Under the pieces are notes generated by a model that saw only the letters and a program-made list of their open reading frames with translations, was not told the DNA's origin and made no database searches. From positions 6,054,501-6,118,500 of the forward strand of contig NC_092323.1 in NCBI RefSeq assembly GCF_036785885.1: a stretch of DNA of 64,000 bases, given 5' to 3'. A program made the position numbers and the translations under genes. Origin of the DNA: Coffea arabica (Eukaryota > Streptophyta > Magnoliopsida > Gentianales > Rubiaceae). Shown here one piece after another: positions 20,735-62,855 of the stretch (positions are counted from its first letter, which is position 1; every line of letters starts with the position of its first letter).

Positions 20735-22330
20735 TTACCTTGTCAGTACATTCTCATCATCTTCGTCATCTTTCCACTCTTCATTCCATATTTTTTCGTA
20801 CCTGAGCTTTCCCAGAACACCTTCAACGGCAATCTCAAAAGCATCTCCAATACTCTCTGACGGATCTTTAGGCCTAGCATACACAAGACTTGGTACAGTC
20901 TCGATCACTTTCTCTCTCATCTTCCTCACCTCCTCTTTGCTATACCCCTCCAACACTTTCCTTATCGACTTCCCTTTCCTCACGTCCTCATGGTCTATGT
21001 AGACCGAGTAACTCTTGGGTTTCCCCGGCAAGAACCATTGGTACTGATCATAAGCCGTTCTCTTCCAGAAAAACACCGGGATTGAACCTGCCACCATGCA
21101 ATCAAAAACCCCTCTCCTCGTATAGCTATCGCCTTTGGGCTGTAAACAGAAATGGGAACTCAAGGAAGCCTTCAACACCACCGACGAACCGTTGTTGCAG
21201 GGAGTCAGGGCGCAGTCCACAACATGGCAAGCCGTCGACTCGTTGTAGCAATAACTCAGCAGTAATGACCTAAAATCGTCGTCTAAGCTGCCGTGTGAGG
21301 CCCCGATGAACGTGAACAAACTGGTGCGGTTTTGTTTGCGCAGGAAGCTTTGCCATTGGAGGATCTGTTTCTTGGAGTGAGGGTGGAATCCAGTTGGGTA
21401 AGGTACGCTGATATCCAGGTCGATCCCGGGGGCTTTCTCCAGGTTGAAGCGCATGACTTTCTCCATCTCCGGCAAGTTGAGGAAGCTGGAGCCCCACTCT
21501 CTTCCCGGATCGGATAACCGGCGGAAATCCCATGTGATGCGGCCCAGCGTGATGAAATGATCCGAGCCCTTGTTCTTCTGCCAGTAGGTTTGGTTCTTGA
21601 CCCACTTGAGGAACATATTGCAATGCCAATCACGCTTGGCAGTGTCGTTGATCCAGAGGTACTTGGCAACCGCCAGTCCAGCGTAGAAGGGCATGTAGAA
21701 CGCCGTAGCAGACTCTGGCTCCCGAGTTCTGCACCTGTAGTTTAACATGCGGTAGTGAAAGATAAGTTCTAAAGAGAATTGGTTGGTACGGTACCAGGCC
21801 GGAACGAAATTATCCGGCAGAATTCCGGCGAGCTCAACGGCGTCTTTGCCGTAGCCGTCGTTGGGACCAATGCCGCATTGCCATCTCCACGGATGAAGAT
21901 CGTTGCATTCGGAAAGCACCAAGTCCTTGGTGAACATAGAAGGGATGTCGTAGATGTAGACCCTGCCGGACTGGCATTCCGGGTCATCGGGAATGGAAGG
22001 CCTGTTGCTGCGTTGGTCACGGACATCACTTTCGGTAGGGAAGCGATGCTGGATAAAATGGGGTTGGTTCGTTGCTGGGGGCTTAGGGGAAAGAGAGAGC
22101 GGTGCAGAACGAGTGATGAAAAGAATGAGAGCTTGGACAGAGAGAAAGGCGGCTAAGAGCCAGAATCGAGGGTTGGCAGAGATGTGGGTGTGGAGGAAAT
22201 TGAAGGTGGTGGCGTTCTTCATGGGAAGGTGGTGTTCAGGGGTTTTGGGTTTCTTTAAATTATGGAGGTCCGACGAATAAGATGATGATGATGATGATGA
22301 GATTGGGTTGTTGGAGCAGGCCGGAAGCAT
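20735..22330 (-). CDS. GT47-a: XLT2-like xyloglucan side-chain glycosyltransferase
   Basis: A single exon of 531 residues with the type II Golgi layout: short Ser-rich cytosolic tail, membrane anchor at about 56-73, Pro-rich stem, then an exostosin/GT47 domain from about 118. Family marks include GRVYIYDIP (122-130), RCRTREPESATAFYMPFYAG (199-218), GRITWDFRR (263-271), YPTGFHP (311-317) and LQPKGDSYTRR (396-406) before FDCMVAGSIPVFFW. The CRT-EPESATAFY block resembles XLT2 rather than MUR3. XLT2 adds galactose to the second xylosyl branch of xyloglucan; asterid relatives add arabinofuranose or beta-xylose, so the sugar donor cannot be read from sequence. It is the most diverged of the four GT47 genes here. 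Its Asp/Glu-rich tail (WKDDEDDENV) is unusual. Confidence 0.87.
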   Translation of the reverse strand: MLPACSNNPISSSSSSSYSSDLHNLKKPKTPEHHLPMKNATTFNFLHTHISANPRFWLLAAFLSVQALILFITRSAPLSLSPKPPATNQPHFIQHRFPTESDVRDQRSNRPSIPDDPECQSGRVYIYDIPSMFTKDLVLSECNDLHPWRWQCGIGPNDGYGKDAVELAGILPDNFVPAWYRTNQFSLELIFHYRMLNYRCRTREPESATAFYMPFYAGLAVAKYLWINDTAKRDWHCNMFLKWVKNQTYWQKNKGSDHFITLGRITWDFRRLSDPGREWGSSFLNLPEMEKVMRFNLEKAPGIDLDISVPYPTGFHPHSKKQILQWQSFLRKQNRTSLFTFIGASHGSLDDDFRSLLLSYCYNESTACHVVDCALTPCNNGSSVVLKASLSSHFCLQPKGDSYTRRGVFDCMVAGSIPVFFWKRTAYDQYQWFLPGKPKSYSVYIDHEDVRKGKSIRKVLEGYSKEEVRKMREKVIETVPSLVYARPKDPSESIGDAFEIAVEGVLGKLRYEKIWNEEWKDDEDDENVLTR

Positions 22331-23047
22331 TTTTCTTATAAATTTTTTTGGACGTGGTGGTGGGAAAGAAGTGGAAATGTTAGCAGGTATGGGAGCTACT
22401 GACTAGGGAGTGATTGAGGGCGGATGTGGGTTCTGATATCGTGAGGGAGGTTTCCACCGACAGAGACAAGGTATAGTTTTATTGGTTCATGCATTTGACG
22501 ATGCTCTACTACTTTGTCCAGCACACGTTAGTCGTCTAAAACTAAAAGATTTTAGGAAGATTTGGGGGTAAAGTGAAATGAAATGTGCTCATTCACCATT
22601 AATTATTCACCAGCAATGTCCCTCTCCCAACACCCCCAGTTTAACCTTCAATCACTACCCAGTGACTATGGTACTAGCAGGGTAAGTTTCCTTATTCGGA
22701 CTGATATTCTTTTATTAGAAATCGAAGGACTGGTGATTACCCCCTTTTTGTTCTTTTGCTTGGGCAATGAAAGGGAGGGAAGGAAACCCGCCGTAAAGAG
22801 CACGCAAGTCTTATCCTTTAGTAGTTATTTATTTATTTTTCTTGTTTTCTCAAATAGTCGTAAAATTTTTCTTAACAAGGGAACTTTAAACGAGGCTCCT
22901 CCTCCGAGTTGGTTCGGTTGGCGTTGGGATTGTCTAGTTAGATCTTGGTACCTTGTGGTCAGGTTTGATTCCTTCTGTCGTCTTGTATATTTTTTGGGTC
23001 GGGGTGCATATGCGCAGGAAAATTAGTTTGGTAAAAGGTTGGAACAC
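22331..23047. other. GT47-a promoter side and spacer, with a possible SINE remnant
   Basis: Upstream region of GT47-a. At about 22905-23035 (plus strand) an A-box-like and a B-box-like (GGTTTGATTCC) motif about 55 bases apart resemble a degraded tRNA-derived SINE. No tail or target duplication was found. Confidence 0.3.
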
Positions 23048-23220
23048 TAGGGTTTGTTTGGATTGGCTTTTATTTCTTCAAATATATTTGTTTACATCAT
23101 CATTACAATTTTCAATACACCTTTTTACCTTCTCAATTACCTTTTTATCTCACATACATCACATCATAAAAAGTGCTACAGTAAAAATATCTCAAATAAC
23201 TTACAATCCAAACAAACTAG
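23048..23220. mobile_element. MITE, copy 2 (TTTGTTTGGATT ends)
   Basis: Terminal inverted repeat GTTTGTTTGGATT on the left and AATCCAAACAAAC on the right. The interior contains TTTTATCTCACATACATCAC followed by CATCATAAAAAGTGCTACAG. The same interior occurs inverted in the element at 34179-34346, so both are copies of one family. CTAG borders both ends and may be a target duplication or part of the terminal repeat. Confidence 0.75.
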
Positions 23221-24246
23221 ACTGCCACCCTTGTCATCCATCTCGGGACTAAGTTTGTCCTTTTAAATCATCCGGTTGGTACTATATTTACTATCTCCTG
23301 TGCTGGCGCCACAGGATAGGACTTGTACTTGTTTGCAATTCTGTAGCTTCCAACGGATCTGGGGGAAATAGTAACTACTCCTGCTACTACTATAAGAAGT
23401 TAATGCACTATTCGAAAAGAAGACTTGACTTCGCCCGGTGGGCGGCGGCTGTGGGTTGACAAAGAAAATTCTGGAGCCCCGCTGATGAAGGCGTGAGTGC
23501 GTGGGGTGTTTCCCCTTTGGTCGACTCATTTCCTGAAATTATGGCTTAAAGTTTCCATTACAGATTACACTACCAAAATTCAGGAGGAATTAAAAAAAAT
23601 TTATTGTACTCCATCTTAAAAAACATCATGGACATGGACGTGGGCTTAAAAATACGTCCTCCTCTTCTCTGATACGCTGTTTGTTCAAAGCATTGAATGT
23701 TTACCACTTATCCCCACCACGCTCTTCTTTTCTTTCTTTTTCTGCTTTTGAGGCGCTCTGTATCTTTAACGTGAGTTGGAAAACTTTCATTAAAATGCAG
23801 ACGAAACATTCAAGTGTGATCTGCCTGAGGAAAAAGTTACCCATGGAGAAATTGTTTTTTGGCTGGAAATGATTTGTCAGAACAGAAAACATAACACCAC
23901 AGACCAACAGAAGAAGAATATTATTATGTGACGTTCGTTGAAGCACTAATTTAACCAAGCCTTCTGGAGCTTAAAAATTAAAAAAAAAAAAATTGACTTT
24001 CAAATGCAAAAGCTCGCGTGTCTTTTCTCTTTCAAATACTGGGTTGTAGCCCTGAGCTGATGATGAAGCCCAACAAAAAAGTCGGCCTCAAATTACGAAG
24101 GCTGACCATGGCCCAAAGTTCTCTAACGGGCTTGAGCTAAGTCTGCCCCAATAAGTATACATCTCCTGGTCATTTTTACATTTTTGTGAGCCTTCTGGAA
24201 CACTGGGCTTTACTCGCCGTCCATTGCCCGCCAAAGCTCTTTTTTC

Positions 24247-24278
<32 letters not shown>

Positions 24279-24541
24279 GCTGACACCAATGCAAAACTGA
24301 CATTCTTATTAACAGAAAAGTTACGAAGCCCTAGCTGAAACAGCTAACTTATGGGCATGGTACATTGTTCTAGTCGTTGAAATACAAATCGATGAGCGTG
24401 TTCGAATATGAGTATTTTTAAATTAATGTGATGTATGTAAAATAAAAAATATATTTATAATAAAAAAATCATGTACGTAAATTTGTGTACCTTGCTATCT
24501 TGAAATAGTGCCACGACGCTTTCATGGCCTTTGGAATATTA
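23221..24541. other. Intergenic spacer
   Basis: No supported gene. Contains an A-run at 24248-24272 and smaller homopolymers; the remaining open frames are short and low in complexity. Confidence 0.4.
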
Positions 24542-24760
24542 TTTGTAGCACCCCCTCAACGGCAATGTCGCAGGCATCTTTGGCGTCACTGCCCAATCCT
24601 TCGCTGGGAAAAGCATACACAAACCTGGGAATAAACTCTCAATTATCTTGTCCCTCATCCTCTTGATATCTTCTTCACTAAAACCCTCCCTCCAGCACTC
24701 TCCTTACTGAAGTCCCATCTCTCACCTCTTTCCGGTCTATGAACACAGAAAAGCTCAGGT
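24542..24760 (-). pseudogene. GT47 (XLT2-like) C-terminal fragment
   Basis: Matches the 3' coding end of GT47-b (37271-37490) almost base for base. Readable pieces are SFSVFIDRKEVRDGTSVRRV, EEDIKRMRDK, PRFVYAFPSEGLGSDAKDA and VEGVLQ. It begins inside the FIDRKEV region, so about three quarters of the gene (anchor, stem and most of the exostosin domain) is missing. Small indels in the CTCCAG and CTCAATTA stretches shift the frame. It sits immediately downstream of a LINE fragment and just before TBL-A, the same GT47-then-TBL order seen elsewhere in the array. Confidence 0.85.
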
Positions 24761-24789
24761 TTTGAACCATCTTTGGAGTTCCACACCAC

Positions 24790-25025
24790 CAGTTCTTGAA
24801 CTGGCATTTAGTAGAAAAAGTAAGGAACCTAATTCAAGGATTCCATAAAATCTAATGTGGTTCATGCCTGTAGAATTGGAAATGTCCCAGCTCATTTGCT
24901 CGCTAAGTTAGTTTTAAATTTCGAGAACAGATTTGTATGTTGGGATAATTTTCCACCCCCATTATAAAAGCTGCTAAAACTGACATGCATTAATGAAAGT
25001 TTTCTTTCCTTAGAAAAAAAAAAAA
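24790..25025 (+). mobile_element. 5'-truncated plant LINE 3' end (RNase H tail)
   Basis: A plus-strand frame reads DSIKSNVVHACRIGNVPAHL, then LAKLVLNFENRFVCWDNFPP, resembling the C-terminal RNase H-like domain of plant L1 LINE polyproteins, in which the R-x-G-N-x-x-A-H-x-L-A-K block is characteristic. One stop codon interrupts the frame after PPPL. The element ends in an A-run at 25013-25025. It abuts the GT47 fragment, so its arrival or a later rearrangement may have removed the 5' part of that gene. Confidence 0.6.
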
Positions 25026-25419
25026 CTGATATGCATTTTTTAACTTTTGAAAACCAAGAGGACTGCCAACATGCGGCGGCATCATACATGCACATACTTC
25101 TACACCCCAGGCCAATACCCTATTCACCGCTCTCTCGTCAACAGAGAGGATACTAACAAAAGTTACCATATGTATTTTGCTAATTTTAGATAAGTAAATA
25201 TACTAAGAAGAAAAAGTTCTAATTACCTGCATATTGTACTTGTGACTCTCATTTATTTCTAATTATTGACGTTTCGTATTTTTACTTTAGAAGTTATTAT
25301 TCTAGTCAAATTTTAGTAGTTTATTTGTTTAAAACATAGAATAATTATTTAATATTTTCTTAATTACTTTTGAATCTTTGTTTTGGAGTGTTTTAGTATT
25401 GTACTACTGGAATCTTTGA

Positions 25420-28400
25420 AGTAATAACGGCGTTATTCAATGTGTATCCACCGGATTGCCAACTTCGGACAAAGAGAAAGGAAAAAGGGAACCACCCACA
25501 GCTTTAAAAAGTAAAGGTAAATGAAAGCATTGATCATAAAATCAAAGGGATCCATATTGGAGTTGTCCAACTTTGAGACCTCAAACTTTAGACATCTTAG
25601 ATTCAAATATCCCTTCTTTTTTTCATTCAGCGACCGACAGAATGCTGCTAATTACGTAACTCCCTCCTTAATAACTCTAACAAAATATCATTCCACGAGT
25701 CGATCGGTCCAGGCAAACACCAATGCACACAATCTCTGGGCAACTCCAACTTCTGACCAGCCAAATGGCCATACACGCTGGGGTGACCATCCGGTCTCAG
25801 CAGCATAGCTTTCGTTGCATCAAATAACCTAAACCTCAATCCTGGTTTCCTTCTTCCTTCTTCCTGCGCAATTCTAAGTTCCTCTAATTGGATCTTGTAC
25901 AACTCTAAATTATATCCCTCTAAGACGGCTTCATTTCTCTTGTAAGGCCTGGTCCTAGGACAGTTTCCACCGCTATCCCAAGTTCCATTTTCAAAGTGTG
26001 AGGGGGCAAATGTCCTCAGAAATATTACACTCTTGAAATTTTGCAGGCTATTAATGGCTCTAAATGCTGTTCTCAAAGCCCTTTGATAGCTAAAGTATGC
26101 TGTCAAGCGAGTGACATTCTCCTGTGGACAATATTGGCAGCCGACCAAATTGCCCTTTTCGTAGAACATGGTTGGACGGAAGAACCAGTGGCCAGCGGAG
26201 ATGATAAAGTAGTCATATTCTTCAATTTTGGTCGTCCAATTTTCATCGAACTCGTCAAGATATAGACTAAAAGAGCGGGTCCTGTCCTTGGGACCAGTTA
26301 CCTCAACTGACCTTACCAAATAAGGAGCCCAAAAGATTGACATTCTAAAATTGTATCCTTGGTACTCCCAGTGCCTGTTCTCATCAGTTGACTTTGAAAT
26401 TTCTCGAGGATAAAGCACCTGGAAATAACGTGAAAAGATTTAATTTCTCCATCTGATCATAGGGAGAGAAGTTTAATTTACACAAAATCAAATGGGACAA
26501 CAATAAGTTTCTCTCCCCACCCCACACACACACACACAACAAAAAAAGGGTTTCCTTTTTGGGGGGTGTCTGTGAAACGCACTACATTTTTTTACTTGTA
26601 GTGAACTATGATAGCAATGATTTCTTTGATGTATGAAATTAGGTAGCACTTTAGCTTCAATGCTAATTAGGATTTCAGTACTAATACGTGTATATTATGC
26701 CAAAGGTGACATTGATGCATTTAATCTCAGTCGTAGAAGAATTCAGGGAAACTAGCAACAACCGATCAAATATTTTGCCTGCTGTCCACCAATCATCGTA
26801 AAGCCTCACAAACTTTTCTTTTAATTATTATTTTTATTTCCAGAGATCCTATCTTCTGATATTGATGAAAACAAGATGTAACAATGAGGTGATACTGGTG
26901 ATCTTGGACAATAAATTAGATCTCGGACAATACGTTGAATTAGCAAATTTTTTTAGAGGTGATAGTTAACTTACACTGGACAAGAGACACATCAATGACT
27001 GCAGGTGATTTCTTGCCACGGAGTCTCCGACAAAGGCAATAGACTTTCCCCTGACGAGTTGCAAGAATTGGCGTGGATCGAATATGGGCAGTTCGCAGCC
27101 GTCTGGTTTCCACCTCCATTTCAAGAACTCTATGTCAGGCCTTCCATATTTCATGCAATTCTGATGTTCTTGAATTCCATAACAAGAGTTGGTATAGTAC
27201 GGTGCCTCAGGGTTCGGAACCCACTCCCCTGAGAATAAGTCACAGTATTCTTCTTCTTGTGATCCCCGTGCTTCTATTTCTGCTGACTTTGTAACCTCAA
27301 CTTCCTCTCCCTTTAGTCTTGGTGGCTCCTCCTCGTCCGCTTTTGTTACTTTTTGGTCCTCTACTTCTGTTTCTCTGTGGTTACAGGGCTCAGAACCATC
27401 ATGCTCATTACGACATGCCTCCAAAAGGGCACCCGAAGGAGCAGTTGGCTTTACTGGTTCCTCCGCAGAATCAAACTCAGAAGGAAGTTTGGATGCTCTC
27501 TTCGTATGGAATTGTGTTGAAGGGGAATAAATGGAGATAACTGATAACAGAATAGTTAGGGCTACAACCGAGGCTATCTTTGGTATTTTTCTTCTAGTTT
27601 GATGTTTCCTTAGTGAATGCTCAATGGCTCGGAACTTCATTTTTAAGGAAAACTAATTAAGCCAGAGAAAGAGAGAATGAGGGAGAAGGAGCCACCAAGG
27701 AATTACACACAGCAGTAGATCAGATTCAGAAAGAACTTGTAGCCAACATTCCACTCGAGTTTTTAATAACGGCACGTATTGGAAGTGCCTCCACAAAACC
27801 AAATACAAATAATAAAACACGTATTAGCATGTGAGAGTTGGAGGTTTTTCTTACGCAGAGCATGTGAGACATAAGGAGCAGAAAACTGCAGAGCAGTGCA
27901 ATTCATAGTTATTTTCTCTGATTACACCCAGAAACAACAGTACAAGAAATAATTTTAGTAATGGAAGTTCTGCATTGACTCTGGCACAGTTGCGTATAGA
28001 TTAATACTGTACTTTAAAGTTGAAACTAGGAAATGATAAAGAATGCCTCGTATGCAGTGAATTCAGATCTGAATAAAAACTGGAAAATTGTGGACTATGG
28101 ACTGTGGAGCCATTATGTTTTCTTGGTATTAACAGTTGATGTTACTGCAACTGAAAGTATCACCAGCTTAACTCAAGCATCAATGTATACAAAGTTAAGA
28201 ACATGATTGCTACAACTTCAACGACTCCTCTTTTTTTCTTAACTTTTTTTTTTTTTAACTAACATATTGTACAACTCGGTAAACAAGCTTGGGCATCTTT
28301 TCAATGCTGAAACATGATAAAAGGGTTAGCTAAATGACCTATTTGTTAGTGGCGAAACATGGAAGAATTTAATGGTTAGATTTGAAAATTCCGAGTATCA

Positions 28401-28570
28401 GTTCCATGGTGAGAATATAACCGTACGAACAAAAAGCCAATTTAATCTGTCAGCAGGTTAGTATAACAGTCTTTAGATGTTACTTAATGGTTAGTAACAA
28501 AGAGTCATGCAAGATGAGCAATGATTAATGGAAGTCTTTAGATGTTTCTTTCAATTATGAACAGAATCGA
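25420..28570. repeat. Segmental duplication, copy 1 (paired with about 49170-52760)
   Basis: From about 25420 to 28570 the sequence aligns by eye, coding and non-coding alike, with 49170-52760 in the same orientation. It covers the 3' flank, both exons and the intron of TBL-A, and nearly 0.9 kb upstream. Differences are scattered substitutions, short indels, about 170 bp of extra 3' flank in copy 2 (about 49388-49550), and one MITE present only in copy 2. Confidence 0.85.
25648..27640 (-). CDS. TBL-A: AXY4-like polysaccharide (xyloglucan) O-acetyltransferase
   Basis: Two exons, 26975-27640 and 25648-26418, joined by a GTAAGT...CAG intron of 556 bp, give 478 residues. Layout: N-terminal anchor at about 22-38, acidic variable stem, then TBL (PMR5N) and DUF231 domains starting [20 protein letters not shown]. 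Catalytic GDS is at 205-207 ([10 protein letters not shown]) and DxxH at 451-454 ([12 protein letters not shown]). [20 protein letters not shown] resembles AXY4/TBL27 and its mannan-acetylating relatives TBL23-26 more than the xylan clade. AXY4 acetylates galactose on xyloglucan in the Golgi. Compared with TBL-C, a 16-bp deletion gives a shorter C-terminus (RRELRN), and the last codon of exon 1 is Ser instead of Arg. Both splice sites are intact. Confidence 0.87.
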
Positions 28571-29489: not shown

Positions 29490-30075
29490 CACTAACAACA
29501 AAAACGTTTGACATGAATATTTCTTCCCTCTGTTTTACTGTACTTTTTTCCCCAGCGAGGACCCTGTTAAGCTAGCTTAAGTATCGAATGTATATTCAAC
29601 ACTTCAATCAAGAGGGAATGCTTTGAAAAGATAAGGAAATAAAAAGAAAAAAGAAAATGGCACTTGGGCATTTTAAGTACCTATTTTAATTGGCTAACCA
29701 AGAATTTTAAAAAATAAAAAAATAAAGGCTTTCGTATCCTTGGTCCCTAAAAAGGAAGCTTCAGCCAAATGTACTCAAAACTTTTTCCATTATTCTTGGA
29801 TTTCCTTTTTGAATAAAGGACGTATTGATCACTTAACTGTAGATCATGACCAATGACATCCGCAGTTAACAACATATTGGTTTACTCGACAGATGAGGGG
29901 AAAAAAAAGAAAAGAAAAATGCTCTAGAAAACGTCTAGAGAAAGGGAGGGCGAAGTAAACACACTACTATTAACGACCGCAAAAGTTACATCCATTTGTC
30001 TTAGTGGAATTATCTCTTTGGTACTGCCATGGCTGGCCAAATGTGGCAACTCTTTCTGTAAAATGAATTGCAGAA
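29490..30075. repeat. Relic of a GT47-TBL intergenic spacer
   Basis: About 29495-29580 resembles 42695-42765, just upstream of GT47-c. About 29820-30075 resembles 43965-44315, the 3' flank of TBL-B (shared ACTGTAGATCATGA, ATTATCTCTTTGGTA and TGGCTGGCCAA). The order is the same as in the intact spacer, yet neither a GT47 nor a TBL coding region remains beside it. It probably marks a lost GT47-TBL unit. Confidence 0.55.
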
Positions 30076-30249
30076 GGTATAGGCAAATATAAACTCGTCC
30101 AAAACTTAAGTTGAAGCTAAATTTTGTTAGCTTGAATTTGTAAGGGACGCAAAATTAACATTTTAAAAGTAAATGACTAAAAAATTCGTTTAGCAAAATA
30201 TAAGATACGTTTTTCCCACAAAATAACACAATAGTTTAGCAAGTGTATA

Positions 30250-30690: not shown

Positions 30691-30899
30691 GATAGTAAAG
30701 TGGTTTGACTCGATAATATTTGTTGCCAATCTTTACCTTTTTGTTACACTTTTACAGTTTTATTCATTCAATTCAATATGCCATCAAATTTGTCTAGTTC
30801 CTGCCCTCATTTTCTTTTAAAAATTCTGCATGTCCATTTTTCACGATGAATACTTACATGCTTTGAACAAGCTTTAACACGTCGATAATGGCAGTAACA

Positions 30900-33084
30900 T
30901 TCCAATACTTCAAAACACCCATTATTTCTAAGGAATGTGAACAAGCCTAACAAATGAAACTGGAGGCCAATTCCTTTAAACTGGAGGACAAAACCCAGCA
31001 CTATGGCCACTGGAATGATATACCCCAACGTTGACATTTGCCCCTAAATGCTGCCACCCACTTCCTTCCTCTTGCAATTCCTGAATCGACAGAGAAACTA
31101 TCAGGTTGTGTGCTTGATTATTGATCAAACCTTAACATAAAAGAAACAAGACAAGGCAAACCAGAAAGTGCTCCTTGAACGCCATCTATGACAACCAAAA
31201 GACACACCAGCGGAGTGAGCTCCTTGACTACTTCCTTCGCATCGCTTAATGCATATCCCAGAAAATGACGGCGGCAGAGGAGACTTGTTGCTGCAATGCT
31301 CACTTCTGCAATCGAAAATGCAATCGCTACCCAGACAGCAACTCGAGCTGCCTCTGGATTCTTAGCTCCCAGTTCATTTGAAACTCGAGTGCTACGAAAA
31401 CAAAAGAGTTGGGTCGATGTATTCTTTTTCTGAGGGCAATAACTCTGTATACAGAACTAAAATTAGAGCTGGAGGGAATCAAGGCAAACCTTGCAGCAGC
31501 ACAACAAAGAGAGTACGCTACATAGTAATGCAACGAAGTAATCGAGTGGCTGTTGGATCATTGGAAGGAGAACTAAGCATTAGTATCGAAAAAACTGGAG
31601 CTTCAATACTAACTAAATATAGGATAAATGTACTTCTAAAATGCGGAAAAATACCATATCGAAATCACTGTAGCTTCAAATGGGACATTTGACAGAAGTC
31701 CAGAAGGTAAAGCCAGTACTTCAAACTTCCACCATTCAAGACTGTAATCATCATGATAGTATTATAATCCATAAAAGATGATCAGGAACAATTTCTGCTC
31801 CTGGGAAGAAGGATCCAGAGAGTTACCATACCGTGACCGCTGAAGGGATAGCAACTTTGATGAACTCTCCCATGCTTAAGAAAGCATCTGTTGAGAAAGA
31901 AATACGGGTCTTTTCACATATAAAACAAGCAATATGACATTAAACCAATAGGATAACCCAAGTGCCAAGGCAGCTCCAGTATTCCCCAGTTTCAAGTAGA
32001 ACACGAAAGCCCAACAAACAGGCAAATGGAAACATAGTGCTGCAACTGAACTTAAGACCAGTGGGAGGATCAAATTCTGAGTCTGCAAGTAGCGAATCAG
32101 CGCTTGGAGAACAGCATAAGGAAATAATGCAGGAATGAGCCAAAATGCATATCCGCTAGCTTCGGCTGAAATCAAATGGTTTTGACCAGTGAAGATCAGT
32201 AGTTTGTCCAATAAGAGCCACAGTAGTGATATTGGTATGCAGACCATGATTAGAGATATGATGGCACCATAAGTATTCATCCCTAGCTTGTGGTAAAGCC
32301 CTGCTCCACCAGCTTGGCCACAGAGAGATTCCAATGCACTAGCCATTCCAAACTGCGTGGAAATCAATCGACTGTTGGATTAGCTCTGATACGATTTGCG
32401 CAAAAATCACAATTTCATAATGTAGAGTTGTGCAATAATTTAATTGTGACAATTGCATGGTTGCTTCTAATCTCATGTGAAAGATTGCGAGTTATAAGGA
32501 AATCATAGACAAGGGAACCACAATTTAGCTACATCAATGGTGGGATCCAGGTGCAAAGGGTACCTGCTTAAAATCATTTTACCAAAAGCTGTTAATAATC
32601 TCATCAGATTTAGCATTACAACAGAACCACTAAATTAAGCTTATAATCTACTAGCCTCCTGGACAAATGCCTACGCATTCTAATTCAAATTCAAAACAAG
32701 CCTTTACGAGTAATATCTTTATGAAAAACATCAGAAAAAACTAACAAACGACGCTGCATTAATACAGGATTACTTTAAAAGATTACTAATATTGCTACAG
32801 AAACCGATAGCTCTGGAAGATATCATAAGGAAAGAAGATATTACAAGGAGAGTGAAGCCGGTGACATCGGTAAGGTAAGTAGCAATTGATGTGCCAGAGA
32901 AGGAGTCTTCACCAAAATGTCCAACCATGATCATCGATGCAATCCGGGAGAAGTGCTGTGAAGCTGTCACCACCACCAAGGGCTATGCTATGCTGCCAAA
33001 CATCTTCAATTCTTGGAGAAATAAATCCCATCTTGGAACCACCCTTTTCCTCTGTGCCATATCTCCAAGCAGCGGTTCTTCCAT
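30900..33084 (-). pseudogene. DETOXIFICATION/MATE efflux transporter pseudogene
   Basis: Exons of a DTX-type MATE transporter are recognisable in order. Exon 1 is 32845-33084 (MEEPLLGD..., SRIASMIMVGHFGEDSFSGT, TGFTLL). Exon 2 runs from 32352 to about 31838 (FGMASALESLCGQAGGAG, PALFPYAVLQALIRYLQTQN, SMGEFIKVAIPSAVTV). A degenerate exon 3 ends at 31490. Exon 4 is 31162-31391 (STRVSNELGAKNPEAARVAV ... GVQGALSG), and the last exon lies at about 30900-31075 (SGWQHLGANVNVG, PVAIVLGFVLQFKG). Splice sites persist. There is an in-frame TAG at codon 34 of exon 1 (32983-32985), a short frame-shifting deletion after LLVLYVK in exon 2, loss of most of exon 3, and at least two shifts in the last exon. MATE proteins are vacuolar or plasma-membrane organic-cation/proton antiporters; this copy cannot work. 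Confidence 0.85.
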
Positions 33085-38983: not shown

Positions 38984-39482
38984 TCTGCCCGCCCCCGATC
39001 AATTAGAGTGGCTTGGCTTGATCTCTAGTACTGTTGCAGATGTATACATATGCAGGGATGCCCGAATATAATCTTTCTTTGCTTCATGTGTTAATTATAT
39101 GTAGCTGGGTAAAGCACTACAACTTCAATCATCATGATGTAGGGTCACTTCTTGTTAGATTTTGTTTTTAACAACCTTTTGCTGTTAGAATATTTGTCCT
39201 TACATATTGTTTTATTTGTGTGCGTAATGTACAGGAGTACATAACTATTTTAAAATTGTATAGTATATTTTAAATCTTCAAAGCCAATTAATCATAAACA
39301 GGTACGTGCTTTGCTAGGAATCTCTTTTGTTTAGGGGTGGCAGCAGTCAAGGTAAGGTCCGATATCCGAAGGTTAATCCAATTAAACGATTGAGGGGTAA
39401 TCCATTAAGATTTGATATTGACGAGCGCTTGACAACAAACAATCGGACAGGATTTGATAAGAGAACCCTAGGAACTCAATGT

Positions 39483-49169: not shown

Positions 49170-49575
49170 GTCAACTAATAACGGCATTATTCAATGTATA
49201 TACATCAGATTGCCAACTTCAGAGAAAGAGAAAGGAAAGGGGGAACCACCAACCACCTACGGCTTAAAAAGTAAAGATAAATGAAAGCATTGAACATAAA
49301 ATCAAAAAGAATCCATACAGGAGGTGACCAACTTTTGAGACCTCAAACCTTACACATCTTGAATTCAAATATCCCTTCTTCTTTTTTCCCGGCTTTTTAA
49401 GCCTACCCTCTCTGCTTGACCCCAAAAAAAAAAAAAAACCATACAGCTTCTGGCGGCATGGCTTTTGTCAATTTGTGCTCCCTAATGAATTCAATGACTG
49501 TAAGCAGTTTTTTCTTCTTTAAATCTTTCGATAATCAAATGTCATTTCATTCGGCGACCGACAGAATACTACTAA

Positions 49576-51885: not shown

Positions 51886-52760
51886 TTTTAAGGCCTTAAA
51901 GGAAAACTAATTAAGCCAGAGAAAGAGAGAATGAGGATGAAGGAGCCACCAAGGAACTACACACAGTAGTAGATCAGAAAGAACTTGTGGCCAACGTTCC
52001 TCTCGAGTTTTTAACAAAGGCACGTATTGGAAGTTCCTTCACAAAACCAAATCCAAATATAAAACACGTATTAGCAGGAGAGTTGGAGGTTTTTCTTACG
52101 CAGAGCATGTGAGACATAAGGAGCAGAAAACAGAGCAATGCAATTCATACTATTTTCTCTGCTTAAACCCAGAAACAACAGTAATACTTAATTTTAGTAA
52201 TGCAAGTTCTGCATTGCCTTGGCACAGTTGTGTATAGATTAATATTTTAAAGTTGAAACTAGGAAACAACAAAGAATGCCTCATATGTAGTCAATTCAGA
52301 TCTGAATAAAAAGTGGGAAATTGTGGACTATGGACTATGAAGCCGAAGCCATCATGTTCTAAAGTTATTCAACAGTTGATGTTACTGCAGCAGGGCTACT
52401 GAAAGTATCAACAGCCTAAGCATCAAAACATACAAAGTTAAGACCATGATTGCTGCAACTTCAACGACTCCTCTTTTTCTCTTAACTTTGCTTTTTCACT
52501 AACATCTTGAACAACTCATTAAACAAGCTTTAAGTATCTTTTAAATGCTGAAACATGATGAAAAGGTTAGCTAAATGACCTATGTGTTCATTGCAAAACA
52601 TGGAAGAATTTACTGGTTAGAGTTAAAATTCCAATTATCACTAGCATAACCAGTTCGATGGTGAGAATATAACCGTATGAACAAGAAGCCAACTCAATCT
52701 GTCAGCAAATCAAGGTTAGAATAACAGTCTTTAGATGTTATTGGTTAGTAACAGTAGTTA

Positions 52761-55700
52761 TGCAAGATGAGCAAAGATTAATTCCAACTAGCATGTCAAT
52801 ATTTGGGTTGGACTCTAGAGAGAACAACTTCTTAACGTGTTTCCACAGCCACATTGTCAGACAAACCTTCTTTGTGACTTGTGGTGGTAAGCATGTGCTT
52901 CTTATCTTCACGCCAACCAATAAGTATGAGTTTATTCATGTGAATCTTTCAAATGATTCACAGAGTTTCATCTTAGAAATACAAGTAGTTAAAAGATCAT
53001 TTTATCTTGGAATTTTATGTTCAATTTTCTCAAGAAAAAATATACCTTATTTCATTTTTGTCCATAAAACGACCAAAGTCAATATATATTCCAATTCCAA
53101 GTTGACGACCAGAGTCTTACTTATACATTATACAACCAAATCAATAACGAATTACTAGCAGTTAAACTCAAATTATTACAAGTATGACAAAACGAATCGA
53201 CCTAAACGAATTAAGTGTATACTGACAAGTCCAAATCCTCATTAAAATGTGGTACTGCCGTTGTTTTCTAAGTGTCAATCATGCAGTATGGTCGTAGTTT
53301 GGACGGTCCATTCAGTTTAGTCATCAGTCATCAAAGAAGGCAACAAATACTACCAAGCAGGAGTTATGCTCTACATTATCTCATGCACCAGTATACCGCA
53401 TAAAAATCATGATAACAGACATGACACTGGTGATGTATATGATAATCAAGATAATTACTACTCAATTAATTAACAGCATACAAAAGTGTCAGACCTAATC
53501 AGCAAAAAATGGAGTTACCTCCAAACTTCTCCTGAGCATTCCGCCTTCGGACCAGAATTCGTGCGATAAAGAGAGTCAATCGTGTATAGAGATGCACAGT
53601 TGAACAAGCTGTCATGTACTATGAAATTGTCAAGGGATGGAGAGGCAGAATGGCAGATCCAGTTTAAAGAGAAGTGAGGCTGGGCTGTGGCAGGTTATAG
53701 GAGAATTAGGACCCGCGGCAGCTTGTCAAGCAGAAACCGGCAGTAGAGTGGGTAATGGGGGAGGAGAGGAAGAAAATGTCCGGAAGGAAGAGGAGAAGAG
53801 CTCTGTACGAAGATGGTGATGAACTTTGGCTCTTAGCTTGCCTTGGTACTTGGCCCGGGTTCGGTGGTTTGTTCAAATGTGGGGCCATAGTACAAATGCA
53901 TGTGTCTGCTCCCACGACATCAGTGCACGACGCTTACCCATATATAACTAATTCTAAGCATTACAACTACCAATGTAACCATTACCATCCGAATAAATTA
54001 AGAAATTAAAGTTTGCTTTGACAATAAAAATTTTATATAAAATTCATTTATCATAAATATTACTCCACCTATTTTTTTATTGCACGCAAATCGAATCGAA
54101 TGTATTAAAAGCACTAGTAATAATTATAGTAGAGTCTCATATAATAAAATGCCAAAATACAACTTGCAATGCAGGTATAAATAATATGAATATATCTTAA
54201 TATCTAGATTTATTTAGTTTGTTTAAATATATTGCATAGTACAATTCTTACTAACTATTGTAGGAGATTCTAATCCAAAATTGCTTTGGTCGCCTACAAT
54301 ACATAAAGGTGGAGTTTTAGATTTGGTGTAAACATTTCTTTGTTTTGTCGTCATTTTTAAAATTTTCAATTTCGCCCTTCTAATTATGTAATTATATCAG
54401 TCGTGATTGCATATCATGCTAACTAACATAACTAAAATTAAACTTCACCCTTACTATGTAGGCATATGTCACCTACATAACTACCCATAAAACATTTTAA
54501 TCATCAAGTTAATTAAAATTTTATTAAAAAAACTATTAAAAATCAAACTTTTTTGTTTATAAAAGTTTTTTTACTAAATTCTTCCGAATAAAAAAACTAA
54601 TGTTTCTATTTTTCCAAAACGGTAAAGCTAATGTTTCTAAGCCATACAAACATGGAGTGTGTCCTTGCCTCCTTGGCACTTGTTTGAAACTAGGTGCTGG
54701 CTACTTTAGCAACGATGATTCAGCTCAACTTGAAAGTTTCCAGCTCAAGCTGTTCGAATAAGTAAACAAGTTTCTACGTACCCCACAATCTCAAGTATAT
54801 TACTATTTCCCCACTTCTAGTTTTTTTGAATATAACTTTATATAAAAAAAAAAGGCCGTAAAAGTTACCAAAAGCAACTAACTGACGAGGATATCAGTAG
54901 ATTATGGGGTATTTACTCTGAGTTTAAGGTCCATAGGGGTATCCTCTTGTCACCATTTGGCTTGATGGGTATTTCTTGTGGGTCCCCCTTAGATTGCTTT
55001 CTGGCCGATTTGCTGATGTTTGCTGCATGTCTCTCATTGTTTCGGTGTGTGTGTAATGTTTCGTTTCGGACAAAAAAAAAAAAGAAAAAGACGTGGACAT
55101 AAAATATATCTAAACATTATCAAAACTTCGGACATGTTTTCATGCTATTGTGCATGGTACATTTTTTGGGGTTAAATTTTGATAAACCTATAACCTCGTA
55201 GCATGCAAAATTAGTTCTTTTTAATAACAACCTACATTAAATAAGGATATTTTAGAGAAATTAAAAGATAACTATATTTTTTAATTGAAAAATGGATTAC
55301 AATTTGGGACAAATAAAAAAGGAAAACAGGACTATCAAAATGGGACGGAGGGAGTAGTTGCCAAATGTTCAAACTTTCTCCTCTTAAGGTCTTGCGTTTT
55401 AACTTTTAAGCATACTTTCTTTAAAAGTGAAATTTCAAATATTTGGAGCTGTTGTCAATTACTATTCTCTTATACATTACGAAGGGAAATCATCAAATTC
55501 ATAAGAATACATTACGAAGGGAAATAATTAAATTCATAATATTCTTTTAAGACTGGCCCACCCGTCCTTTTTATGACGATCTCTTCTGGTTGGTTTTTTG
55601 TCTGCATCGAACCAGAGGTCCGGGTGAACAGTAAAACCCCAACATAATGCCATTATTGCTTTCACTCAATGCATGGAAAGCAGTTCCCTACCACGTGCTT

Positions 55701-56876: not shown

Positions 56877-57010
56877 CCGCAAGAGTTCGAGTTCCATGGT
56901 TATTGTGTTCGGGGGATGGGGCCTATTCTCTCGAACCGATGGGGGATTAGTCGGGTCCGATTTACCCGATGGCCCGGATACCCTTTCCGTCAGCCAAAAA
57001 AAAAAAAAAA
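56877..57010 (+). mobile_element. SINE-like retroposon with A-tail and target duplication
   Basis: AAACTTTCTATTC at 56864-56876 recurs as AAACTTCCTATTC at 57011-57023, after an A-run that begins near 56996. The body has a B-box-like AGAGTTCGAGTTCC and a GC-rich 3' part (GGGGGATTAGTCGGG, GGCCCGGATACC) reminiscent of dicot tRNA-derived SINEs. An A-box-like TTTAGTGGATA lies upstream of the left duplication, so either the copy is 5'-truncated or the true left boundary is further out. Confidence 0.55.
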
Positions 57011-57013
57011 AAA

Positions 57014-57887: not shown

Positions 57888-57922
<35 letters not shown>

Positions 57923-57978
57923 AAAGAAATCCCATCAAGTACAATAATTTATCCGGCCACAAGAATATTTGAAGAACC
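57014..57978 (+). promoter_or_regulatory. Spacer and promoter side of GT47-d
   Basis: AT-rich, no gene. An (AT)n tract at 57892-57916 ends 62 bases before the GT47-d start codon and may supply TATA elements. Confidence 0.35.
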
Positions 57979-59442
57979 ATGAAAATGCACCCCTTTGCCA
58001 AATTCTCATTATCGTCGTCTGGCACTAGTAGCAGCAGTAGTAGACGCAATTTTGTGGACAAACCCAAGAACCGTCGTGCATGGCTTTTCGTTGCTCTCGT
58101 CTTTCCTATTCTCATCCTCCTAATGTTCACCAGTGCTCCGAGGCAATATCTATCCATCCGTCGTCTGAAGCAACGTTTCCGAGCTCCGGCTGGTTCTGAG
58201 CAGTGCAAGTACGGCACCGTCTATGTATACGACCTTCCTCCATCCTTTAACAAGAAATTGTTAGACAACTGCCGCGCTATAGATCCGCAGAATTCACTTT
58301 GCGATGCTCTCTCTAACGATGGATTTGGCCCGAAAGCCACCGATCTCCAGGGAATCATCCCCGAGGATCTTACTCCCGCGTGGTACGCCACTAGCATGTT
58401 TGCCGGTGAAGTTATTTATCATACCAGGATCTCCAATTACAAGTGCAGAACCTACGACCCAGATTCTGCAGCAGCTTTTTACATACCCTTTTATGCGGGA
58501 TTAGCTATCGCCAAGTATCTGTACGCTAATCGCAGTATTGAGAGCGAGAGAGAATCGCAGGGCGAGAGCTTGGTCAAGTGGGTAACTGAGCAACCGTCTT
58601 GGAAGAGATCCAGCGGCGCTGATCACTTTATTATGCTGGGCAGAGTATCTGGGGATTTCAGGCCTGGGGATCATCACATGGATGCAAAATCGGGGTCGAG
58701 CTTCGTTCTCATGCCTCCTATCAGACAGACGCTAAGGCTGGCACTTGAACGAAGCCCCTGGGACCGCTACGAGATTGGGGTGCCGTATCCTACGGGATTT
58801 CATCCCAGGTCCAACGCTGAGCTTGAAAACTGGTTGAAATTCGTGAGAACTCGCAACCGGTCCAAGCTCTTCACATTTGTGGGAGGGAAAGAAAAGAGGT
58901 TGAAGGATGATTTCAGGGGTTTGTTGGTGGACCAGTGCCGCGACGAGTCTGACAGGTGCACAGTTGTGGACTGTTCGGAGACTCGGTGTTCCGATGGAAG
59001 CCCGGCAATTCTTGAACCCTTCCTGGACTCCAACTTCTGTTTGCAGCCCAGATCAGGTGATTCTTTCACGAGAAGATCCACATTTAATTGCATGCTGGCT
59101 GGTTCAATACCGGTTTTCTTCTGGAAAAGAAGCATCTTTGGTCAGTATGACTGGTTCCTGAGAGATGACCCCGAGCGGTTCTCGGTATTTATAGACGAGA
59201 AGCAAGTGAGAAACGGGACAATTTCTATTAGGAAAGTGTTGGAGGGATATGGCATTGAAGAGATTCAGATGATGAGGGAAAGGGTCACTAATCTGATACC
59301 TAGGTTTCTTTATGTTATGCCCGGTGATGATGAATACGATGATGGTGGTGTGGGGAAGTATACCATGAGAGATGCAGTTGATATAGCTGTTGAAGGGGTG
59401 CTGCGACGATTCAAGGAGCTAAGATTAGTCGAGCGACAATGA
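57979..59442 (+). CDS. GT47-d: XLT2-like glycosyltransferase with altered conserved residues, opposite strand
   Basis: A single exon of 487 residues. Ser-rich tail, anchor at about 34-51, almost no stem, exostosin domain from CKYGTVYVYDLPPSFNKKLL. The blocks CRTYDPDSAAAFYIPFYAGL, VPYPTGFHPRSN, SKLFTFVGGK and GSIPVFFW are present. Three features differ from the other copies: the conserved WDFRR is GDFRP, a Ser is inserted in the LQPRGDS loop (LQPRSGDSFTRR, from 355), and FDCMLAG is FNCMLAG. It is the only full-length GT47 on the plus strand. The frame is open, so the gene is expressed or only recently relaxed; altered or lost activity is possible. Confidence 0.85.
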   Translation: MKMHPFAKFSLSSSGTSSSSSRRNFVDKPKNRRAWLFVALVFPILILLMFTSAPRQYLSIRRLKQRFRAPAGSEQCKYGTVYVYDLPPSFNKKLLDNCRAIDPQNSLCDALSNDGFGPKATDLQGIIPEDLTPAWYATSMFAGEVIYHTRISNYKCRTYDPDSAAAFYIPFYAGLAIAKYLYANRSIESERESQGESLVKWVTEQPSWKRSSGADHFIMLGRVSGDFRPGDHHMDAKSGSSFVLMPPIRQTLRLALERSPWDRYEIGVPYPTGFHPRSNAELENWLKFVRTRNRSKLFTFVGGKEKRLKDDFRGLLVDQCRDESDRCTVVDCSETRCSDGSPAILEPFLDSNFCLQPRSGDSFTRRSTFNCMLAGSIPVFFWKRSIFGQYDWFLRDDPERFSVFIDEKQVRNGTISIRKVLEGYGIEEIQMMRERVTNLIPRFLYVMPGDDEYDDGGVGKYTMRDAVDIAVEGVLRRFKELRLVERQ

Positions 59443-59621
59443 GCGCAAACAAATTACCCGCCAAAGGCTCGAGACCTCAGTTCAAGGCCTGCAGTGGGTG
59501 ATTCTTCTGGGGTCCTCGTTTGCGTGGTTCAACAACAACAATTTTGCTGTTCGGACCTCTAATAAGGTCCGGTTGATGAATTCACAGCACCAGTGTATTG
59601 CTAATTGATTAACGCTGGAAA

Positions 59622-59830
59622 TTAATTGCTTGATTCAGAGGATCAGGCTTCATTAGTGTCGTAAGTATGCAAGTATTTATGTTGTCAACAAAAGTCAGTT
59701 TGTACTTGTGGATTAATTGAAGAAAAAATACCGTGATAAAAGAGTAAAATTTACTGTACGTAATAAGATGGAGGTATATTGATGATCTATTTGTATCCTC
59801 ATAGGAAACGCAAATATTCAAACCGTTGAA
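59622..59830 (+). repeat. GT47-d 3' flank, copy 1 of a direct repeat
   Basis: About 209 bp, starting TTAATTGCTTGATTCAGAGG and ending AAACCGTTGAA, is repeated at 60096-60299. The offset is 474 bp and mismatches are few. Confidence 0.88.
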
Positions 59831-60020
59831 TATTAGGTAAAACAACTATTATTTGCAGAGTTAGCTGCGGAACTTGGCTCCCTCTCAAGACACCACTTAC
59901 CGAAGTCGTCGGTAATGAAAGTTCCCACAAGTAAAAAAAAAAAATACTAGCGTGGTAGTGTCATAGTAATAGCTAGGAGCCAACCCATATGCAACTTCTA
60001 GAGCAGAGACGAGGGAAGAA

Positions 60021-60107
60021 ATGCAGCCCTTAGCCAGATTCATAACATCTAGACGGAATTTTCTCGACAAACCCAAGAACCGTCGTGCCTGGCTCTTAAT
60101 TGCTTGA
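60021..60107 (+). pseudogene. GT47 N-terminal remnant (28 codons) fused to the GT47-d 3' flank
   Basis: The frame MQPLARFITSRRNFLDKPKN followed by RRAWLLIA and a stop matches the first 40 residues of GT47-d (SRRNFVDKPKNRRAWLFVA) less an internal serine run. At the end of the match the sequence switches directly into the repeat that follows GT47-d. The bases TTGCT occur at both breakpoints, so the middle of a duplicated GT47 gene was probably deleted through short homology. The remaining 28-codon frame is open by chance. Confidence 0.85.
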
Positions 60108-60299
60108 TTCAGAGGATCAGGCTTCGTTAGTATCGTAAGTATGCAAGTATCTAAGTGGTCAACAAAGTCAGCTTGTACTTTTGGATTAATTGAAGAAAAA
60201 AATAACCATGATAAAAGATTAAAATTTAGTGTATGTAATAAGATGAAGGTATATTCTATTTGTATCCTCATAGGAAACACAAATATTCAAACCGTTGAA
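60096..60299 (+). repeat. GT47-d 3' flank, copy 2
   Basis: Second copy of the repeat at 59622-59830. It directly continues the GT47 N-terminal remnant. Confidence 0.88.
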
Positions 60300-60461
60300 C
60301 AAAATTGCTTCAAGGAGTCAAAAAAAAAAAAAAAGAAAAAAGCAAAGAGAAAAGGATAATGGAAGAAACAAATGCATGCTAGAAGTTTATTGCTGTCGCA
60401 GTAATAAAATTTTTGGGAGTACGTTTTGTGGGGAGAATCCCAAATGAATTCCTCAACTACT

Positions 60462-62855
60462 CTAGGTATACCTATATGATGATTTTTTTGTTTCCTCCCG
60501 TTTGATTAATTCTTGTAAGAAGTCATTCCATGCGTCGATCGGACCGGGCAAACACCAATGCTCGCAATCATTAGTCACTTTCTCAGTTGGCCAGTGACCG
60601 TATTTACTGGGGTGACCGTCTGGTCTCAGCGACATAGCCTGCGTTACATCAAATAATCGAAACCTTAAACCCCATTTGCTTCCTTCTTCTTGAGCAATTC
60701 TAAGTTCCTTCAATTGTATTTTGTGCAGTTCTGAGTTATAATCCGCCAAGACAGTCTCATTCCTGTTGAAGGGCCTCGTTCTCACACAATCTCCACCTTG
60801 GTCCCAAACCCCACCTTCAAAGTGCGACGGGGCAATGGTCCTAAGGATTGTTACACCCTTGAAGTTTGCTAAGCTGATAATTGCTCTGAAAGCTGTCCTG
60901 AAAGCTCTTTCATAACTAAAATTCATTGTGAACTGAGTAACATTGTCTTGTTTACAGGCCAGGCAGCCAATGAGGGTGCGATTTTCATAGAAATTGGTTG
61001 GCCTGAAGAACCATTGCCCAGCTGAGATGATAATGTAGTCATACGCTTGAACTTTTGTTGTCCAGCCATCATCAAACTCATCAAGATACAGATTGAAAGG
61101 GCGGGTTATATCGTTGGGATCAGTTCTTTCTGACCTTACCAGATAGGGAGCCCAGAACATGGAAACGTTGAAGTTATATTCCCTGTATACCCAGCGTCTA
61201 TTTTCGTCATTAGCAGTTGAAACATCCAGAGGATAAAGAACCTGAAAATACACGGATAAAAATTATATATTCCATTTGCAGCACAACATTTTCATCTTTA
61301 TTTCTTATTTTCCTTTTTTGTAGGGAATAATATACGGTGGACTGATGTTCAAGAACTGCAAAAAAGGGGTGGTAATTTGCCTCGGCCAGTTAACAATTAC
61401 TGTCAATCATCCCATAATTCGTTTTCTCATTCCATCATATCTTCGTTTTTTCTTGCTTTAGGAAGACATCAAATTGATTTAGTCAGTGGAAACACGGAAT
61501 CAGTTGATCCTTTTTTTTCTTTGTTGTTTTTAATACAATGAGTTTTGTTTTCGTGTAAATCCTGCGCTGCTAACTTACCCATTTTGAAGGAAGATGAAAT
61601 AAAAATAGGAAATATTTTGGGTTGGAGCACTAAGTTTTATGCTATTGTTCATAAAAGTTGTGCGCATCAAAGTTATAAGCACATTAAAAGTATAACTAAT
61701 GCAAATCTTTAGTGAACGACGCAAGTTTTACAACAAAACGGATTAACTTAATCTCGTGTGATGAGGGCAAGCAAAATTAAATTCCTCAAAAGGTGGAGCT
61801 TTAAATTTGATCACATATAAGCAAATTAAGCAAAAACAAAATGCACAGCAGAGCATAACCAATTCGGACTCATACGGCTGCTATTCTGCCTTGTCTTACT
61901 CAAGGAAGCCTGGAGGACCGTTCCTACCACACAAAGAAATTGTACAGATTGCAAGGAGATTTTTTTTATAAAAAAAAAAAAAAAAAAAGATAAAATCTGC
62001 AAGCATGGAGTAATCTGAACCAAAAATTTAGATAATGCAAGTATTTCACCAACAAATCAAACATGACTGAGCTAACATGATGAATGTGAAGATGGACTTT
62101 ACCCTCGACAAGAGGCACATCAATGACAACATGTGATTTCTTGCCAGAGAGTCTCCCACAAAGGCGATGGACTTTCCCCTAACCACTTCCAAAAACTGGT
62201 GCGGATCGAATATGGGCAGCTCGCATCCGTCTGGTTTCCACCTCCATTTCAAAAAGTTAGTATCGGGCCTTCCATATTTCATACAATTCTGATGATCATA
62301 AATTCCATAACACGTGGAGTTGGTATAATACGGTGCCTCCGGGTTGGGAACCCATTCCCCTGTAAACAGGTCGCAGCTTTCTTTATCTCCCAATTTGCTG
62401 TGGTCAATGCCGCCAGCAGGATTAGGAACTGGAGATACCCTCTTAGTTTGTTCCGGTGATCGTTGGATTGGAATTCTCGTTCTTCCCTCATTTTCGTCCC
62501 CTTGGCTTGGGCTTGGAGATGGAGCAGACCGCCTTTCAGAATTATTTCTATCCAATGTAGTCTGGGCAACTATCAAGTCACTCTTGATGGAGCTTGGTGG
62601 TTCGCTTGGCTCTATTTCCGGTGAATTTGCAGCCTCAGGTTCATCATCTTTTTCAGGTCTCCTTATCGATTCCCTGGGAGAATCAGAAGAAGGGACCGCT
62701 TGAGGTACATTCCCAGGATTATATAGTAGTGAAGGAGAATATACGCAAATAATAGTAGCAACGGATAAAGCAATGCTCAAGGCTACAAGAGAGGCTACCT
62801 TGGGTGCCTTTCTTCGTCTTTGATGCGCTGGAAGATCAAACATTTGAAGATTCAT
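60462..62855 (-). CDS. TBL-D: AXY4-like polysaccharide (xyloglucan) O-acetyltransferase
   Basis: Exons 62103-62855 and 60462-61241, with a GTAAAG...CAG intron of 861 bp, give 510 residues, the longest TBL here because of a longer Ser/Pro/Glu-rich stem (about 45-155). Anchor at about 21-40 after [14 protein letters not shown]. The domain starts [20 protein letters not shown]. Catalytic GDS is at 234-236 ([11 protein letters not shown]) and DxxH at 476-479 (DCEHW). The Val of DCVH is Glu here, which keeps the Asp and His but alters the pocket edge. The intact frame and splice sites suggest a working gene. It faces GT47-d tail to tail, with only the GT47 remnant between them. Confidence 0.87.

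Follow-up and report, generated by a model that had tools for sequence, protein, structure and literature searches.

A composite array of GT47 glycosyltransferase and TBL O-acetyltransferase genes in Coffea arabica with predicted XBT-type members

Here, we analysed a stretch of 64,000 nucleotides of Coffea arabica DNA (contig NC_092323.1, positions 6,054,501 to 6,118,500), called the window below, in which a first-pass annotation made from the sequence had described genes of two enzyme families, GT47 glycosyltransferases and TBL O-acetyltransferases. The region from 20.7 to 62.9 kb of the window contains eight intact genes, four of the GT47 family and four TBL genes with two exons each, along with two GT47 relics. 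The locus is probably a composite tandem array, in which a local GT47-AIII family, with one galactosyltransferase-like gene and c2-type genes that match coffee Cc07_g06550 and Cc07_g06570, lies together with a local TBL family. The two families are clustered physically; a functional cluster is only a candidate. The features of the array are as follows.

20735-22330, minus strand: GTa, GT47 gene, 531 amino acids; Pfam Exostosin_GT47, expectation (E) value 1.2e-61; donor pocket QF-RI-LE-Y-GDSYTRR
24504-24803, minus strand: GT47 relic 1, 3' end of a GTb-like gene with broken frames; tblastn, 63.5% amino acid identity to GTb
25406-28529, no strand: duplicated segment (gene, upstream side and 3' flank), partner of 49160-52782; blastn, 84-91% nucleotide identity in three pieces
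25648-27640, minus strand: TBL1, exons 27640-26975 and 26418-25648, 478 amino acids; PMR5N and PC-Esterase; GDS, DCVH
30807-32982, minus strand: pieces of a MATE transporter gene within the array; Pfam MatE on open reading frames (ORFs) 31876-32379 and 31118-31456
37220-38983, minus strand: GTb, GT47 gene, 587 amino acids; pocket MF-RM-VE-Y-GDSDTRK
40719-42269, minus strand: GTc, GT47 gene, 516 amino acids; pocket LF-RS-IE-Y-GDSVTRR, 14/14 to coffee CcXBT1
44335-46771, minus strand: TBL2, exons 46771-46088 and 45105-44335, 484 amino acids; GDS, DCVH
49160-52782, no strand: duplicated segment, partner of 25406-28529; blastn
49576-51885, minus strand: TBL3, exons 51885-51220 and 50355-49576, 481 amino acids; 92.7% amino acid identity to TBL1; GDS, DxxH
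57979-59442, plus strand: GTd, GT47 gene, 487 amino acids; pocket MF-RV-LE-Y-GDSFTRR, 14/14 to coffee Cc07_g06570
60018-60299, plus strand: GT47 relic 2, tandem copy of GTd with the coding body deleted; blastn, and tblastn from 60018
60462-62855, minus strand: TBL4, exons 62855-62103 and 61241-60462, 510 amino acids; GDS, DCEH

The array holds intact genes of two enzyme families

All four single-exon GT47 ORFs (20735-22402, 37220-38998 and 40719-42380 on the minus strand, 57973-59442 on the plus strand) match the Pfam model Exostosin_GT47 over nearly its full length (E values of 1.2e-61 to 3.1e-69, model positions 2 to 290-292 of 293), which places them in the GT47 family. The four TBL genes, all on the minus strand, have one GT..AG intron each, and their exons, joined in phase 0, give open frames of 478, 484, 481 and 510 amino acids with no internal stops. 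The Pfam scan covered TBL1 alone among the TBLs and found PMR5N and PC-Esterase in its exons, while TBL2-TBL4 were recognised by their 59-93% identity to TBL1; the TBL/DUF231 catalytic motifs GDS and DxxH are kept in 4/4 genes. A hydrophobic stretch close to the N-terminus is present in all eight GT47 and TBL products.

The counts and coordinates of GT47 genes, relics and TBL genes in the first-pass annotation agree with the Pfam matches, gene models and relic alignments, and its claim that two unrelated enzyme families are physically clustered is borne out, with 8/8 genes intact. The locus thus has two or more non-homologous enzyme genes in adjacent positions, as plant biosynthetic gene clusters do. 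A relaxed search for additional relics gave none above chance (best leftover match, E 0.13).

GT47 donor pockets point to XBT-type genes

The GT47 products were compared with the seven donor-pocket patterns, of 14 residues each, that Wilson et al. 2023 list (PMC10952531), namely XLT2 (QF-RI-IE-Y-GDSFTRR), MUR3 (QF-RI-VE-Y-GDSYTRR), SlXST1/2 (MY-RL-VE-Y-GDGFTRR and MY-RL-VE-Y-GDGLTRR), VmXST1 (LY-RM-VE-Y-GDGFTRR), CcXBT1 (LF-RS-IE-Y-GDSVTRR) and Cc07_g06570 (MF-RV-LE-Y-GDSFTRR). The GTc pocket is identical to that of coffee CcXBT1 at 14/14 positions (next best 11/14), and when this pattern is taken as the mark of an XBT-type (GT47-AIII c2) enzyme, the other three genes reach 9-10/14. The GTd pocket is likewise identical to that of coffee Cc07_g06570 (14/14, next best 11/14), and GTb agrees with none of the seven patterns at more than 10/14. 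GTa stands at 13/14 to MUR3 and 12/14 to XLT2, and it is the only one of the four with the XLT2-type pattern QF-RI-xE-Y-GDS[FY]TRR. AtXLT2, OsXLT2 and MUR3 are GT47-A enzymes like the window genes, but they differ from the pockets of GTb, GTc and GTd at 3-5 of the 14 positions. The arabinofuranosyltransferases SlXST1/2 and VmXST1 (GT47-AIII c) share with GTb, GTc and GTd the replacement of Q by M or L at the first pocket position; however, the second position is Y in these enzymes and F in the window genes, and GDG takes the place of the GDS of the latter.

All four genes had been described as XLT2-like. At the pocket level this can be kept for GTa, but not for GTb, which resembles no listed pattern closely, nor for GTc and GTd. 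Because of the full matches of the latter two to coffee c2 pockets and the mismatch of GTb, the locus most likely represents asterid GT47-AIII with subclade-c2 (XBT-type) genes rather than four galactosyltransferases. CcXBT1 is Cc07_g06550, so both matching coffee genes have close numbers on one chromosome. Coffee gene numbers of this kind step by ten per gene, so that one gene would lie between the two. The two full pocket matches, together with these close numbers, point to the same type of locus.

CcXBT1 is a xyloglucan beta-1,2-xylosyltransferase, which in Arabidopsis xylosylates the second alpha-xylose of XXXG, while Cc07_g06570 brought no apparent change to the mur3-3 phenotype (PMC10952531). 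Subclades b and c of GT47-AIII are asterid-specific, and c2 has been seen in lamiids (PMC10952531). By its pockets alone, the window would most likely be assigned to an asterid, probably a lamiid. Xyloglucan side chains are the main substrate of the GT47-AIII enzymes that have been characterised. By its pocket, GTa looks galactosyltransferase-like, of subclade a or b. It may be a xyloglucan galactosyltransferase or, if it belongs to subclade b, a glucomannan galactosyltransferase, since that subclade keeps galactosyl-like donor residues and its tomato member SlMBGT1 (GT47-AIIIb) acts on galactoglucomannan (PMC11662442; this paper and PMC6110886, PMC11360243, PMC4844278 and PMC12884326 are cited throughout from excerpts of their text).

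Neither GTb by itself nor the GT alignment had a match when PDB was searched by sequence, and no confirmed relative was found with GTc among viral contigs and plasmids or with the GT alignment among genome contigs. AlphaFold modelling of GTc with a four-sequence alignment gave no usable fold (mean predicted local distance difference test score 34.9). The idea that GTa is dead owing to Lys at 'VLKAS' was dropped; the site is outside the pocket positions as placed here, and MUR3 likewise has Lys there.

Possible acetylation targets of the TBL proteins

Among solved chains, the sole plant TBL found with TBL exon 2 in the PDB search was ESKIMO1, a distant relative (E 1.2e-12). Searches with TBL4 exon 2 among genome contigs and with the TBL exon-2 alignment among viral contigs gave no confirmed relative. 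The wording 'RPDGHP' and a second stretch of ten residues in the TBLs resemble the TBL19-27 group, which holds both xyloglucan and mannan enzymes. TBL2 has Ser at residue 258 (SIFSAPYLV) where the other three TBLs of the window have Trp, a possible change at the acceptor site.

A 2024 review separates XGOAT/AXY4, acting on fucosylated galactose, from XyBAT, acting on O-6 of backbone glucose, and from the mannan enzyme MOAT (PMC11360243); more recently, AtTBL19/20/21/22/27 were linked with xyloglucan and AtTBL23-26 with mannan (PMC12884326, 2026). AXY4/AXY4L (XGOAT, the clade of AtTBL22/AtTBL27), XyBAT and MOAT have in common with the window TBLs the PMR5N and PC-Esterase domains (by the scan of TBL1), GDS and DxxH. 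Both motifs are required in TBLs, and Arabidopsis has 46 TBL genes (PMC6110886, 2018). The excerpt of a 2014 paper lists as acetylated xyloglucan units only backbone glucose (Glc), arabinofuranose (Araf) and galactose (Gal) (PMC4844278), and in the excerpt of the 2024 review the acetyltransferase for side-chain arabinofuranose is given as unidentified (PMC11360243).

According to the first-pass annotation, XLT2-type galactosyltransferases would act first, AXY4-type TBLs would then acetylate the new galactose, and the genes would make up a small biosynthetic gene cluster. The galactosyltransferase-like pocket of GTa is consistent with this, and AXY4 and AXY4L do acetylate xyloglucan galactose (PMC6110886, PMC11360243). 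However, GTb, GTc and GTd do not have a pocket of the galactosyl type, and for GTc and GTd the pocket is identical to that of a coffee c2 enzyme. Moreover, recombinant AXY4/XGOAT acetylated fucosylated galactose only (PMC11360243), and fucose is typically found on the last (MUR3) side chain and not on the middle galactose (PMC4844278), which is the XLT2 position (PMC10952531). Acetylation of a newly added galactose is out of keeping with most of the array. A CcXBT1-type side chain has no galactose, and since the expected product of GTc would be free of it as well, there is no support for galactose acetylation at this gene. We therefore consider the proposed model very improbable.

The two families are mixed in an order close to random

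The families had also been said to alternate. With G for a GT47 gene, g for a GT47 relic and T for a TBL gene, the order is G g T G G T T G g T, which makes 6 runs against 5.8 expected if the order were random (probability of 6 or more runs, 0.60). With intact genes only (n = 8), there are 6 runs against 5.0 expected (P 0.37). Since these counts are about those of a random order, 'alternating' tells only that the families are mixed; the mixing itself stands, while the interleaving is no greater than by chance. Separate tandem growth of two neighbouring genes would give two runs, thus at least some of the duplications must have shifted blocks or genes past each other.

Local duplication and constraint on the intact copies

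The array grew through local duplication, and it contains both recent and ancient copies. TBL1 and TBL3 lie in a young copy of about 3 kb with a synonymous divergence (Ks) of 0.10. Relic 1 shows 86% nucleotide identity over 227 bp (24530-24756) to 37261-37481 in GTb, and it retains one short, supported piece of the GTb 3' flank at 24362-24393 (E 1.6e-4); a match at 24212-24233 reaches only E 0.13. In relic 2, the 5' coding end of GTd (58041-58095, matching 60050-60104 at 87%) is joined to the GTd 3' flank (59622-59830, matching 60096-60299 at 89%), and the rest of the coding body is gone.

The other pairs within the families are older: Ks is 1.04 for TBL2/TBL4, 1.03 for GTb/GTc and at least 1.33 for the remaining nine pairs, as estimated by the simple Nei-Gojobori method, which is near saturation at about 1 and saturates at 1.33 and above. 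The ratio of nonsynonymous to synonymous divergence (Ka/Ks) is 0.11-0.36 in 12/12 pairs, of which the lowest value (GTa/GTb) depends on a saturated Ks of 3.65. With Ka/Ks well below 1, the intact copies look constrained.

In addition, a weak colinear trace of three pieces (E 0.007 to 9e-8) connects 29494-30089 with 42691-44328. It may be the remnant of a lost TBL2-like copy, but one end of it abuts a repeat that also occurs at 9249-9375, so the trace was not used as evidence. The TBL3 intron has, at about 50673-50970, an AT-rich insert of about 300 bp with near-perfect inverted ends of the GGGGTGCAAACGAATCGAG type, which is missing from the TBL1 intron. This is probably a short DNA transposon that arrived after the TBL1/TBL3 duplication.

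Is the clustering functional?

If the locus is the composite tandem array that we favour, all eight products would be single-anchor Golgi enzymes. The GT47 enzymes would differ in the sugar that they attach to O-2 of the xyloglucan alpha-xylose, with galactose predicted for GTa and beta-xylose for GTc, and the TBLs would acetylate the same class of polymer, either at unbranched backbone glucose or on side chains. The mixed order would most likely have arisen from one old pair of neighbours through rounds of segmental duplication, together with deletion and one or more inversions. It is possible that selection has held both families together.

Several points weigh against this reading. The GT47 class assignments are based on 14 pocket residues, and the third and fourth of the five pocket regions were placed by sequence order, as the published text has no residue numbers there. 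Joint TBL-GT modules are not apparent: Ks is 1.04 for TBL2/TBL4 but 2.26 for GTc/GTd, and 1.03 for GTb/GTc but 1.44 for TBL2/TBL3, all of these values being near or past saturation. Copying of a TBL and a GT gene as one tandem module was rejected as a simple history because of this disagreement between the would-be partners. Functional clustering is further countered by the pieces of a MATE gene, which sit inside the array between TBL1 and GTb (the outer ORFs 30807-31043, with no Pfam match, and 32770-32982 were assigned by eye).

The MATE pieces and the random-like gene order would both be in keeping with a chance neighbourhood enlarged by local duplication. The two families might then act on different polymers, for example with GTa as a mannan beta-galactosyltransferase (GT47-AIIIb), in the manner of SlMBGT1, or with the TBLs as mannan O-acetyltransferases, and their proximity would be meaningless. 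As a rough estimate, the chance that a TBL gene lies within three genes on either side of a given locus is about 1%, taking the 46 Arabidopsis TBLs (PMC6110886) among an assumed 25,000 genes; with about nine GT47-A genes, as in tomato (PMC11662442), one GT47-TBL neighbour pair would not be rare. Duplication from one such pair would yield clustering by itself. On the other hand, old copies (Ks of about 1 and above) are still linked and have low Ka/Ks, and the coffee counterparts of GTc and GTd have close gene numbers. We regard a chance neighbourhood as possible, if somewhat unlikely.

Alternatively, the TBLs could act with XBT/XST-type enzymes, either on backbone glucose, with XUGG-type xyloglucan as the result, or on a pentose side chain, which is compatible with the composite array and adds a function to it. 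In Solanaceae there is an XXGG xyloglucan that is acetylated on the backbone and bears arabinose in its side chains (PMC11360243, PMC4844278). XUGG occurs in kiwi fruit skin, and overexpression of CcXBT1 in Arabidopsis gave XUGG/XUG. The arabinofuranose acetyltransferase that the 2024 review gives as unidentified, and the fact that both families are intact and locally amplified, would agree with such a role. However, the beta-xylose expected from GTc is not among the acetylated units listed above, and the Ks values give no support to module-wise co-duplication. A functional cluster of this kind is therefore a tentative proposal, which we consider unlikely on present evidence.

A bolder form of this proposal, and in our opinion a quite unlikely one, is an asterid-specific, long-maintained cluster for decorated hemicellulose, in which GT47-AIII enzymes of several donor specificities would have evolved beside dedicated TBLs. 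Among these TBLs would be the enzymes that acetylate the pentose-type or XXGG-type xyloglucan of asterids, and the side-chain sugar and the acetylation pattern would thus be inherited as one locus. Plant metabolic gene clusters also have non-homologous enzyme genes next to each other; they serve specialised metabolites, whereas the window locus comprises only two families and would concern a matrix polysaccharide. No report of a GT47/TBL cluster was found among the titles and abstract beginnings of the matches listed, mostly outside the subscription literature. PMC10952531 does not mention TBL neighbours of the coffee GT47 genes ('tbl' occurs in it only within 'tBlastn'), and of six coffee gene numbers looked up in the papers searched only the two GT47 genes occur, with nothing on what lies between or beside them. 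No Solyc number for XST1/2 was found in the excerpts.

Candidate genes upstream of the array and other features

Several candidate genes precede the array. An ORF at 434-907 on the minus strand resembles, by eye, exon 1 of an MRG chromodomain gene, without a Pfam match. At 3630-3932 on the plus strand, a short ORF without a Pfam match ends in SLASGPNRRGNGHK, a tail that in our view resembles secreted signalling peptides of the PIP/IDA type. Two overlapping ORFs at 4465-5117 on the minus strand, neither with a Pfam match, resemble by eye the kinase at the C-terminus of a CrRLK1L receptor; as they are in different frames, this locus is probably a pseudogene. From 11134 to about 19800 on the plus strand, what looks like a HOS15-type gene is marked by a LisH match, which at E 3e-4 falls slightly short of the curated cut-off, and by a WD40 match at 16528-16809. 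It ends, as judged by eye, about 1 kb before GTa. An intergenic inverted pair of about 110 bp (23119-23218 and 34289-34179, 83% identical) is likely a small repeat. Rfam at gathering thresholds and a tRNA scan gave no matches.

Significance

In asterids, GT47-AIII has diversified; nevertheless, Wilson et al. found no beta-xylosylated xyloglucan in the lamiids that they tested (PMC10952531). An XBT-type gene among intact TBL genes provides concrete candidate pairs of enzymes to be expressed together. Conservation of the neighbourhood across asterids would make the locus an unusual example of gene clustering for a matrix polysaccharide of the cell wall; without such conservation, it would show that local duplication can mimic a biosynthetic cluster.

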